A stretch of DNA of 64,000 nucleotides, from assembly GCF_018141545.1 (NCBI RefSeq), contig NZ_CP064356.1:2555001-2619000 (forward strand). Direction: 5' to 3'. This stretch comes from Miltoncostaea oceani. Its GTDB lineage: Bacteria; Actinomycetota; Thermoleophilia; Miltoncostaeales; Miltoncostaeaceae. Below are positions 4,601 through 48,720 of the stretch, piece after piece; position 1 is the stretch's first letter; the number at the start of each line of letters is the position of its first letter. The notes beneath the pieces were generated by a model. It ran no database searches. It was given only the letters and a program-made list of their open reading frames with translations, and was not told where the DNA came from. The translations under genes and the position numbers were made by a program.

Positions 4601-5180
4601 CGAGGTCCAATTGGACCTCGGTGTCGCGGCCAAGTGGACCACGGGGGTCAGGTCCAAGTGGACCATGGGGTCGCGGCCAAATAGATCCCCGCGACGCACC
4701 AGGCCCGTCGACGCCTCTCCCGGCGTTCCCTGCAGCCCTTGACTCCACTCGGGGAGGCGCTGGCCGAGACGGTCACGGTCCAAGTGGACCACGAGGTCAG
4801 GTCCAAGTGGACCTCCGGGTCAGGTCCAAGTGGACCACGGGGTCGCGGCCAAATGGACCAGGGGTCGCGGCCAAGTGGACCCCCACGACACATCAAGCCC
4901 ATCTGACGCCTCCCCCGGCGTTCCCGGCAGCCCTTCACCCCACCTGTGGAGGAGCCGGCCCAGAAGGTCACGGCCGATTGGGCCTCGGGGTCGCGGCCAA
5001 GTGGACCACGGGGTCAGGTCCAAATGGACCTCGGGGTCACGGCCAAATGGACCACGGCCACACCCCAGGCCCTCGACACCGCCCCGCCGGCGTTCCCTGC
5101 AGCCCCTCACCCCACCCGTGGAGGCCCCCCCCCGGAACGGTCGCGGCCAAATGGACCTCGACGCATCGGCCAATCGACCG
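4601..5180. repeat. 23-bp dyad repeat array, four clusters with conserved linkers
   Basis: This 679-bp gap between two convergent genes (4559-5237) holds at least 15 copies of a dyad with core GGTCCA-NN-TGGACC; a common variant has GCGGCCA as the left arm. Taking the second N as the centre, copies lie at 4611, 4634, 4658, 4681; 4784, 4807, 4830, 4853, 4875; 4978, 5001, 5024, 5047; 5151, 5174. The step within a cluster is 22-24 bp, almost always 23. The gaps between clusters are 103, 103 and 104 bp. The linkers (4689-4776, 4882-4970, 5054-5143) resemble each other, sharing GGCGTTCCC then GCAGCCC. The first copy is a perfect 20-bp palindrome at 4601-4620. No gene was seen inside. Confidence 0.9.
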
Positions 5181-31675: not shown

Positions 31676-31682
31676 GAAACAG

Positions 31683-32049
31683 TGGACCCGGCCGGCACTG
31701 CCCCGGCGTCCGAAAGCGTTTCCCCAACGGCTTCTCCGAGCGCAGTCGCTGATGAGTTTCTCACGAGGGGCGTCATCACCGACGAACCGCTCCCCCGCCA
31801 GGTTCTCCTGTGATCTCACCCGACGACCGAGGACCTCTGTCGCCGAGCCAGGGTCGCTAGCTGACACCGGTGATCTCCCTCACGACCCGAAGGGAGGCCG
31901 ATGGCTCTCATTTACTGCTGTTTAGGCAGCGAGAGCGAGCTTGGGAGAGTTCTCCGCAGCTCCGTTGTTTCCCGGTTGTTGACGCGGTCCACCGGGTCCG
32001 CGGCTCGCTGACCGTTGCGGTTCCGCTCCGTCGAAACTGGATCGGGCCC
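31683..32049 (-). ncRNA. ssrA: Transfer-messenger RNA (tmRNA)
   Basis: 367-nt RNA that rescues stalled ribosomes with SmpB. The 5' end GGGCCCGATCCAGTTTCGACGG matches the tmRNA start in order; its first 7 bases pair with CGGGTCC at the 3' end, followed by discriminator A at 31683. CCA is not encoded (genome reads CTG). The tag reading frame ends at TAA 31922-31924 and encodes AENSPKLALAA, with resume codon GCG (31955-31957) or GCT just before. The 3' part TTTCGGACG-CCGG aligns base for base with E. coli, but the T-loop is GGCAGTG instead of a UUCRANY-type loop. A TACCCT -10 at 32063-32068 implies a short 5' leader removed by RNase P. Confidence 0.93.
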
Positions 32050-46490: not shown

Positions 46491-47204
46491 CTAGCGCCGC
46501 ACGGGGGCGGCCGCGTCAGTGGTTCCCCGCGCCCGCTCCGCGCGGGAGACGCAGACCGCCCCCACGTCGCGGGTTCCGCCGGCCCGCAGGGCGCGTGCGC
46601 AGTCGGCGAGGGTCGCCCCCGTCGTGCGGACGTCGTCGACGAGCCAGGCCCGCTCCGGCACGGCATCCCGCCCGCCGGCCGCGAAGGCACCCGAGGCCTG
46701 GCGCGACCGCTCCCGCAGGGGGGCGCCGCGTTGCGACGGGCCCTCCCGGACACGCCGTAGCGGCTGGGCGACCGCGAGGCCCCATCGGTCGGCGAGCGAC
46801 CGGGCGATCAGGAGGCTCTGGTTGAACCCACGCTCGCGGGCGCGGCGTGCCCCGAGGGGCACCGGCACCAGGACCGTGCCGGGGGGCGGCGGGTCCACCG
46901 TCGCGGCGACGAGGTCGGCGAGCACCGGGGCGAGGCCGCGGCGGCGGCCGTCCTTCAGCGCCGTCACGAGCGCCGGGACCGGGCCCGCGTAGGCGAGCGC
47001 CTGGCGGGCGCCGGCGATGACGCGGCCACGGCACTCCCCGCAGCGCTCCACCGCGATGGGCACGGGCGCCCCGCACCCCCCGCACCACGGCGGCGGGAGG
47101 GGGACCACCGCGTCGAGGCATGACGCGCAGACCGCGGCCCCGGGCAGGCCGCACGCCGCGCAGGCGGGAGGGAGGAGCACGTCCAGGAGGGAGGCGATCG
47201 GCAC
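46491..47204 (-). CDS. comF: ComF-family amidophosphoribosyltransferase-like protein
   Basis: Two zinc-type Cys pairs at the N terminus (CAACGLPGAAVCASCLD, then CGGCGAP and CGEC), then a PRTase-like domain with VPVPLGARRARERGFNQSLLIARSLA and the PRPP motif AWLVDDVRTTGATL. 237 residues. In other bacteria ComF/ComFC acts at the cytosolic side of DNA uptake for transformation; the rest of a competence machine is not in the window. GTG 47204 follows GGTGGAG. The second dyad array lies directly upstream. Confidence 0.9.
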   Translation of the reverse strand: MPIASLLDVLLPPACAACGLPGAAVCASCLDAVVPLPPPWCGGCGAPVPIAVERCGECRGRVIAGARQALAYAGPVPALVTALKDGRRRGLAPVLADLVAATVDPPPPGTVLVPVPLGARRARERGFNQSLLIARSLADRWGLAVAQPLRRVREGPSQRGAPLRERSRQASGAFAAGGRDAVPERAWLVDDVRTTGATLADCARALRAGGTRDVGAVCVSRAERARGTTDAAAPVRR

Positions 47205-47320
47205 GTCTCCACCCTGGCCCCCTCCCCCGTCACGGCGCGACGCCCATGCGTGCCGGGGGTGTGCGGAGGGTGTGCCGCCGGGGGTGCGTGGTCCCCGTCC
47301 CGCTCCGGGGCGTCGCGGTG

Positions 47321-47610
47321 GTCCATTCGGACCTCGCCGCGAGGTCCAAATGGACCTGACGCGAGCATCGGCCCTCCCGATCGCGCCGGCGGGCGCCCGA
47401 CGGTCATTCGGCCGACGCCGCGAGGTCCATTTGGACTTACAACGGCCGGCAGGGTGACGATCTCCCGTCCAGTGGTCCGATCCGCTGGTGGTCCGAATGG
47501 ACCTTGCACCCGGGTCCAATTGGACCATCGGAGCGGGCCGGCGAGCCCGGCCGGGATCCCCCGAAGTCGTCTCGCCCAAGTGGACCTCGCCGCGAGGTCC
47601 AATTGGACCA
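47321..47610. repeat. Second 23-bp dyad repeat array, four pairs
   Basis: The 445-bp gap 47205-47649 contains eight copies of the same dyad (GGTCCA-NN-TGGACC) grouped as four pairs, each pair exactly 23 bp apart: centres 47327/47350, 47408/47431, 47497/47520, 47580/47603. Pairs recur every 81, 89 and 83 bp. The pair at 47408 is the most degenerate. GCCGCGAGGTCC links members of three pairs. No gene was seen; unlike the first array, the linkers are not obviously alike. It separates mtnA (3' side) from the comF start. Confidence 0.88.
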
Positions 47611-47649: not shown

Positions 47650-48720
47650 TCAGGCGGGGGCACCCTCGGGGCGGGGGAGCGACCGTTCGTAGGGGGGCCG
47701 GTGGACGCCGTGCTCCGTGACGATCGCCGCGACGAGGCGGGCGGGGGTCACGTCGAAGGCGGGGTTGGCGGCCATCGTCCCCGGGTCGGCGGCGGGGCGG
47801 CCGTCGAGGGTGAGGCCGCGGACCTCGTCGCCGGAGCGCTCCTCGATGGGGATCCCGGCCCCCGTCGGCGTCGCCGGGTCCACGGTCGTGCTGGGGGCCG
47901 CGACGATCATCGGGATGCCGTGCTCCCGGGCGAGGACGGCGAGGCCGTACGTGCCGATCTTGTTCGCCACGTCCCCGTTCGCGGCGATGCGGTCCGCCCC
48001 CACGACGACGTGGGAGACGGCGCCGCCCGCCATCATCGCCGCCGCCATCGAATCGGTGATGAGGGTATGGGCGATCCCCTCCCGCCCCAGCTCCCACGCC
48101 GTCAGCCGGGAGCCCTGCAGCAGCGGCCGCGTCTCCGGCACCACCACCCGCACCGTCGGGTCCGCGGCGTGGGCGGCGCGCACCACGCCGAGGGCCGTCC
48201 CGTACCCCCCCGTCGCGAGGGCGCCGGCGTTGCAGTGGGTCATGATCCGCGCGCCCCGGCCGAGGAGGGCGAGGGCGTGGGCGCCGATCGCCCGGCACCG
48301 CGCCACCTCGTCGTCGTGGATCCGCCGCGCCGCGTCGGCGAGGGCGGCGGCGGTGGCCTCCGGGCGACCGGGGTGGGCCGCCACCAGGGCCGACTGGGCG
48401 TCGACCGCCCACATCAGGTTCACCGCCGTCGGCCGCGCCGCGCGCAGCGCCGCGGCGGCACGCGCCACCTCTGCGGCGAACGCGTCGCCGTCGTCGTGGG
48501 GGGCGTGGGCGGCGGCGAGGGCGACGCCCATCGCCCCCGCGACCCCGATCGCGGGAGCGCCGCGGATCGCGAGGCGGCGGATCGCGTCGACGACCTCCGG
48601 CCACGCCGTGCAGCGCAGCACCACCTCCTCCGAAGGGAGGCGCGTCTGGTCGAGCATCTCGACGGCGTCGCCGGTGAGGCGGATGACGTCGTGCGGCGCG
48701 ACCCCCGCCGGGGCGGTCAC
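47650..48720 (-). CDS. mtnA: Methylthioribose-1-phosphate isomerase
   Basis: Methionine-salvage enzyme converting methylthioribose-1-phosphate to the ribulose form. eIF2B-like fold: RGAPAIGVAGAMGVALA, catalytic Cys in IMTHCNAGALATGGYGTALG, and catalytic Asp in VVGADRIAANGDVANKIGTY. 356 residues. GTG 48720 overlaps the ahcY stop. A closely related family acts on 5-deoxyribose-1-phosphate or on ribose-1,5-bisphosphate, but the pairing with ahcY favours salvage. Confidence 0.92.
   Translation of the reverse strand: MTAPAGVAPHDVIRLTGDAVEMLDQTRLPSEEVVLRCTAWPEVVDAIRRLAIRGAPAIGVAGAMGVALAAAHAPHDDGDAFAAEVARAAAALRAARPTAVNLMWAVDAQSALVAAHPGRPEATAAALADAARRIHDDEVARCRAIGAHALALLGRGARIMTHCNAGALATGGYGTALGVVRAAHAADPTVRVVVPETRPLLQGSRLTAWELGREGIAHTLITDSMAAAMMAGGAVSHVVVGADRIAANGDVANKIGTYGLAVLAREHGIPMIVAAPSTTVDPATPTGAGIPIEERSGDEVRGLTLDGRPAADPGTMAANPAFDVTPARLVAAIVTEHGVHRPPYERSLPRPEGAPA

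Follow-up and report, generated by a model that had tools for sequence, protein, structure and literature searches.

Paired dyads between mtnA and comF

The window analysed here (the whole stretch of 64,000 nucleotides, G000:C1:2555001-2619000) contains a 14-bp dyad in four pairs within positions 47320-47609, located downstream of the stop of mtnA (IF-2B family; 47650..48720, minus strand) and upstream of the start of a comF-like gene with a double zinc ribbon (46491..47204, minus strand). An earlier note on this DNA had described eight copies in four pairs, each 23 bp apart and recurring every 81-89 bp, that separate mtnA from comF, and the coordinates confirm this arrangement between the 3' end of the one gene and the 5' end of the other; the note's dyad of 23 bp, however, is a dyad of 14 bp, with 23 bp being the step. 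The 14-mers that begin the pairs start at 47320, 47401, 47490 and 47573 (pair-to-pair distances of 81, 89 and 83 bp), and the step is 23 bp in every pair. Pair 1 comprises dyads 1a (GGTCCATTCGGACC, 47320..47333) and 1b (GGTCCAAATGGACC, 47343..47356) across the linker TCGCCGCGA, pair 2 the degenerate dyad 2a (CGGTCATTCGGCCG, 47401..47414) and 2b (GGTCCATTTGGACT, 47424..47437) across ACGCCGCGA, pair 3 dyads 3a (GGTCCGAATGGACC, 47490..47503) and 3b (GGTCCAATTGGACC, 47513..47526) across TTGCACCCG, and pair 4 dyads 4a (CGCCCAAGTGGACC, 47573..47586) and 4b (GGTCCAATTGGACC, 47596..47609) across TCGCCGCGA again, with no strand assigned to any dyad. Three of these four 9-bp linkers (TCGCCGCGA, ACGCCGCGA, TCGCCGCGA) are near-copies, and the inter-pair spacers are unrelated save for one couple (z 3.4).

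Searching the window for the 12-bp core with at most two mismatches, we found 21 matches versus 2.3 expected (none of 100 shuffles had as many), and all except two of these fall inside its two arrays. The other array (4604..5180, no strand assigned) lies between convergent genes and consists of about 15 dyads, with super-repeats of 172-194 bp. The earlier note had this array, 42 kb away, sharing both motif and step; the 23-bp steps are indeed there, in runs of dyads that are not strictly paired. We also checked whether both arrays could be recent copies of one element, and neither is a recent copy of the other. The window further holds a tmRNA gene (Rfam RF00023) at 31680-32049 on the minus strand.

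Beyond the window, identical 23-mers occur within arrays at 1.628 and 2.770 Mb, and array units are homogenised in G003, another of the four genomes of the genus. Together with the repeated linkers between mtnA and comF, these observations indicate that arrays enlarge by local duplication. Copying of the same exact 23-bp unit between loci was also considered, and was dropped because linkers differ from locus to locus.

Conservation of dyads and step across loci and species

In each of the four genus members, no other spacing comes close to 23 bp in frequency, and the same peak is seen in loci fetched by one dyad with no spacing condition (in G001 and G002, the step of 23 occurred ten times under this fetch versus at most three times for any other step). 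Over 66 loci from four species, dyads hold 1.1-2.3 bits of information per core position, linkers 0.04-0.54 and flanks at most 0.31; these pairs were chosen by their 23-bp step, such that the step itself is circular there and the linker result is not. The consensus over these loci has a symmetric arm of 5 bp around a 4-base centre. Six orthologous pairs of the sister species G001 and G002, at each of which at least one dyad was ascertained through its match, keep 145 of 168 dyad bases (86%) and 29 of 54 linker bases (54%; p=2e-6), with no indel in any linker.

At the mtnA-comF locus, the sister species G003 has an orthologous array whose pairs again keep a 22-23 bp step with other linkers (TCGACGCCG, not TCGCCGCGA). 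In G001, mtnA and comF are nearly adjacent and the array is absent, an arrangement shared by several outgroups, and gene positions indicate no array there in G002 either. The lineage of G000 (the genome of the window) and G003 probably acquired the array and kept it afterwards, and the array's absence from two genus members makes the site dispensable. A second place common to G000 and G003 is the fliK region.

Conserved dyads and step amid near-random linkers and flanks, both between loci and between species, support selection on site geometry. The earlier note had argued for such selection rather than simple duplication, citing linkers that differ: the linkers do differ between arrays and between species, though copied linkers are frequent inside an array (three of four between mtnA and comF), and the geometry is kept well beyond that array, but "rather than" was too strong, as local duplication has also acted. 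From the sequences compared here, we read local duplication as producing the copies, with conservation of dyads and step coming after.

Two related patterns were seen alongside these sites. In G001 and G002, the CTP synthase operon is preceded, at about 110 bp, by a GCGCCAATTGGCGC pair with a 23-bp step (L077:9004-9040; L090:4637 on) that shares the CCAATTGG core and differs in its outer bases. In a genome of another genus (G010), intergenic (A)TTGGCCACTTGGCCG dyads occur at 8-bp or irregular steps (L162:5617-5920; L153-L159), including in the mtnA-comF gap, with a similar half-site and another geometry; because of those steps, and because the orphan gene family X described below was not found in the fetched G010 stretches, we kept this repeat apart from the genus set.

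Duplex DNA or RNA hairpin

Evaluated as RNA, pair 1 folds strongly on either strand (z -5.7 and -6.4), as it would if the pairs were bidirectional terminators or RNA 3'-end hairpins in which the two dyads form the arms of one hairpin. The position of sites downstream of genes would agree with this, as would a perfect inverted pair in G003 (L102:14371-14407) that takes up the 39 bp separating two convergent stop codons except for about 2 bp on each side, and a small excess of arm complementarity at single-pair loci (11.71 vs 11.22 shuffled, p=0.014). Multi-pair loci, in contrast, fall below their shuffled partners (10.14 vs 10.61), direct tandem arrays being poor at forming such pairing; no U-tract is evident, pairs also lie upstream of X, and loci share both the primary sequence and the exact step, a conservation that terminator function would not require. 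We therefore regard terminators or 3'-end hairpins as unlikely.

Arm-to-arm pairing across all loci showed no excess (10.71 vs 10.81 shuffled), and since pairing does not rise above shuffled partners overall, recognition of half-sites in duplex DNA is favoured. Base-pair covariation within dyads was likewise lacking (5.27 vs 5.33 shuffled), as would be expected of independent protein half-sites. An Rfam search at gathering score, over the window and five array loci, returned the tmRNA only. Protein binding is the most likely function of the dyads.

Distribution over the chromosome and among genomes

The assembly of G000 has contigs of 3.68 Mb (C1, with dnaA at base 390), 816 kb and 47 kb. The exact 13-mer pattern matched C1 71 times, counting both strands, and no other contig, and its reversed control did not match at all; pair searches raised the count to about 30 loci, all on this main chromosome, and the lack of loci on the two other contigs has P about 0.002 if loci are uniform. 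The 816-kb contig (C2), which may be a second chromosome-like replicon, holds the sole dif-like XerCD pattern match in G000 as well as a DnaA-domain match (G000:C2:441034, C2:788558). Exact 23-step pairs were present in all four genus genomes (96 in G000, 17 in G003, 13 in G001, 10 in G002), and 38 other genomes of the family yielded one altogether, with the reversed-pattern control at about zero. A stricter pair pattern, scanned over 84,980 species genomes (a set that excludes the genome of the window and those very near it), matched two genus members and one Streptomyces, the latter probably by chance.

Within chromosomes, 2 of 30 loci lie in the origin-proximal 38% of G000 and 0 of 21 in the origin-proximal 32% of G003, cuts that were picked after the data were seen; cut-free KS tests gave p 0.003 and 0.012, respectively. 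With the terminus taken as the antipode of dnaA, since GC skew is too weak to locate it, folded origin distances run from 0.06 to 0.98 in G000 and from 0.32 to 0.66 in G003. A regular 40-kb spacing seemed true for the first loci of the 2.52-2.83 Mb region and was broken by loci at 2770 and 2802 kb, and replichore-polar orientation of the units was rejected by inspection, orientation being mixed on both arms.

Genomic surroundings were assessed on gene calls from a simple GC3-based script, and 14 of the 26 G000 loci without X lie in convergent gaps versus 17 of 197 other gaps. A transcription regulator acting at each array on the genes adjoining it would suit sites that are palindromic and paired, and some arrays do lie upstream of genes (comF, two MarR genes, X genes). 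Most, however, lie at 3' ends or between convergent genes, the neighbours have no shared function (fifty flanking proteins of G000 loci revealed no common pathway), and the mtnA-comF array is missing in two genus members, such that ordinary operators seem to us very improbable. The two array-adjacent MarR genes were also considered as the common regulator and rejected, as they are not paralogous.

An orphan gene family adjoining the arrays

Unannotated gaps adjoining several arrays encode a hitherto undescribed orphan multi-copy family, here called X, that the GC3-based caller had overlooked. Copies were located in G000 (L035:4361; L047:4275; L049:3786, minus strand; L104:4688; L107:7243, minus strand; L204:17361, minus strand), G003 (L063, L098, L102) and G001 (L073, L075). 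The family has about 155 conserved residues with an invariant CxxC...CxxH, helices and PPSVRTMRRWFREGRWL near its end, and it is coding because third codon positions vary most (differences of 0.24/0.24/0.45 by codon position). All copies continue into a Pro/Gly-rich frame with no early stop past the conserved domain; among the G003 copies, near-identity stops sharply after RWL.

Upstream of X, the dyads lie about 115 and 92 bp before the start codon: in 8 diverged copies the pair begins 114-120 bp before it with a step of 22-23 bp, and one copy (L047) has its pair farther off, at -154. Mean pairwise identity in these upstream regions is 0.71 and 0.61 for the dyads, 0.35 for the linker and 0.33-0.37 for the flanks, whose best 14-bp window reaches 0.42. 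The upstream pair is also present in L107 and L204, which were recovered independently of their own dyads; L204 came from a blind sample of 22% of C1, which held two X copies, and no X copy turned up in a blind sample covering half of C2. The pair may be inherited among homologous copies, though its surroundings have decayed to chance level. From this position upstream of nearly every examined copy, we take X as the leading candidate for a protein binding the dyad pairs. The window itself has no X copy, such that X would act on the window arrays in trans.

Searches of X against Pfam, NCBIfam, PHROGs, PDB, phages, plasmids and IMG/VR gave nothing significant, including no ParB-type match in Pfam and no known transposase domain. 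Its C-terminal motif resembles the excisionase profile PF07825 (Exc) at E 0.008-0.08 and 13-17 bits, under the cut-off of 23, and the lambda Xis chain 2og0 scored E=1. The AlphaFold2 model has a mean pLDDT of 70, falling to about 45-61 near the C-terminal motif, and no Foldseek match among PDB and viral folds. A helix-turn-helix in this motif is possible on this weak likeness. Unlike Xis winged-helix proteins, X has an N-terminal Cys/His part, and no integrase or att site was seen with it.

Comparison with known dispersed sites

The closest likeness is to REP/BIME/REPIN elements, which are also short palindromes scattered between genes, commonly as doublets or tandem arrays, with a 3'-end bias and an associated gene family. 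The dyads could accordingly be a selfish repeat, spread by an enzyme (perhaps X in place of RAYT), grown by tandem duplication and without a host role. Bias to 3' ends and convergent gaps is typical of REPs (PMC3733652), ordered tandem REP arrays lie on opposite chromosome arms in P. fluorescens (PMC3116915), and X beside the repeats recalls RAYT beside REPs. Three X copies in G003, at three places, are 94-97% identical with their upstream dyads included, which points to gene and site having been copied or converted together within the genome.

Against this, RAYT (Y1, PF01797) is absent from all four genus genomes and present in 5 control genomes, on which we rejected a RAYT/REPIN identity, and X is without a known transposase domain. 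Using the REP tag and stem-loop definitions of PMC3733652, we found no GTAG tag in the consensus over 66 loci (CGTC occurs solely as the inner half-site of some G001 and G002 pairs) and symmetric arms of 5 bp, not 8-9. Different loci do not carry copied linkers or flanks, the 23-bp step is constant, orthologous loci keep their dyads while linkers decay, and the dyads occur at tens, not hundreds, of places, some of them conserved between species. Weighing both sides, we consider a REP-like selfish repeat a minority possibility, less probable than protein-bound sites.

The matS sites bound by MatP in the E. coli terminus domain are likewise palindromes of 13-14 bp, distributed unevenly over some 20-30 places on the chromosome, tens of kb apart. 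The dyads differ in sequence, in their fixed-step pairs and arrays, and in lying outside the terminus as well (they are mid-arm in G003 and depleted near the origin in G000), and X is not recognisably MatP. Noc sites and parS of the ParB family, 14-16 bp palindromes that are dispersed or clustered on the chromosome, also differ in sequence, and no exact parS was found in the fetched loci. The known REP/RAYT, matS/MatP and ParB/Noc systems each depart from these sites either in a defining feature that was tested or in sequence.

Interpretation

To summarize their biology, we give about even weight to a reading in which the pairs are duplex-DNA binding sites, likeliest for X, with autoregulation and dispersed chromosomal sites; binding, dimer stoichiometry, the identity of the protein and its chromosomal role are all what we infer from the patterns above. 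A sequence-specific protein would recognise the half-sites GGNCCAA / TTGGNCC in double-stranded DNA, with two dimers per pair and their centres 23 bp apart. The X product would bind the pair upstream of its own start codons, thereby regulating itself, and would also occupy the gene-free pairs and arrays scattered elsewhere, most of them at 3' ends and between convergent genes. Its target there would be the chromosome and not adjacent promoters, with DNA being clustered or anchored, for instance. The array between mtnA and comF, like others, would arise by local duplication of a pair, with binding then holding the geometry.

Taken further, X and some 30 dispersed sites, paired or arrayed, of fixed 23-bp geometry may form a genus-specific chromosome-marking system, organising the chromosome or copying itself and unrelated to MatP, ParB/Noc or RAYT, a proposal we hold tentatively and slightly below an even chance. 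In such a system, the sites would be kept off the secondary replicons and be thin near the origin. The dispersed sites may be either means of chromosome organisation or REP-like by-products of a self-copying gene. Systems of dispersed sites and a protein that shape bacterial chromosomes are known in few lineages, and our literature search found none for Thermoleophilia, nor the motif string itself. With a defined geometry and a named candidate gene, the question is directly testable, and if X spreads its own gene, it would represent a REP/RAYT-like partnership made from an unrelated protein.
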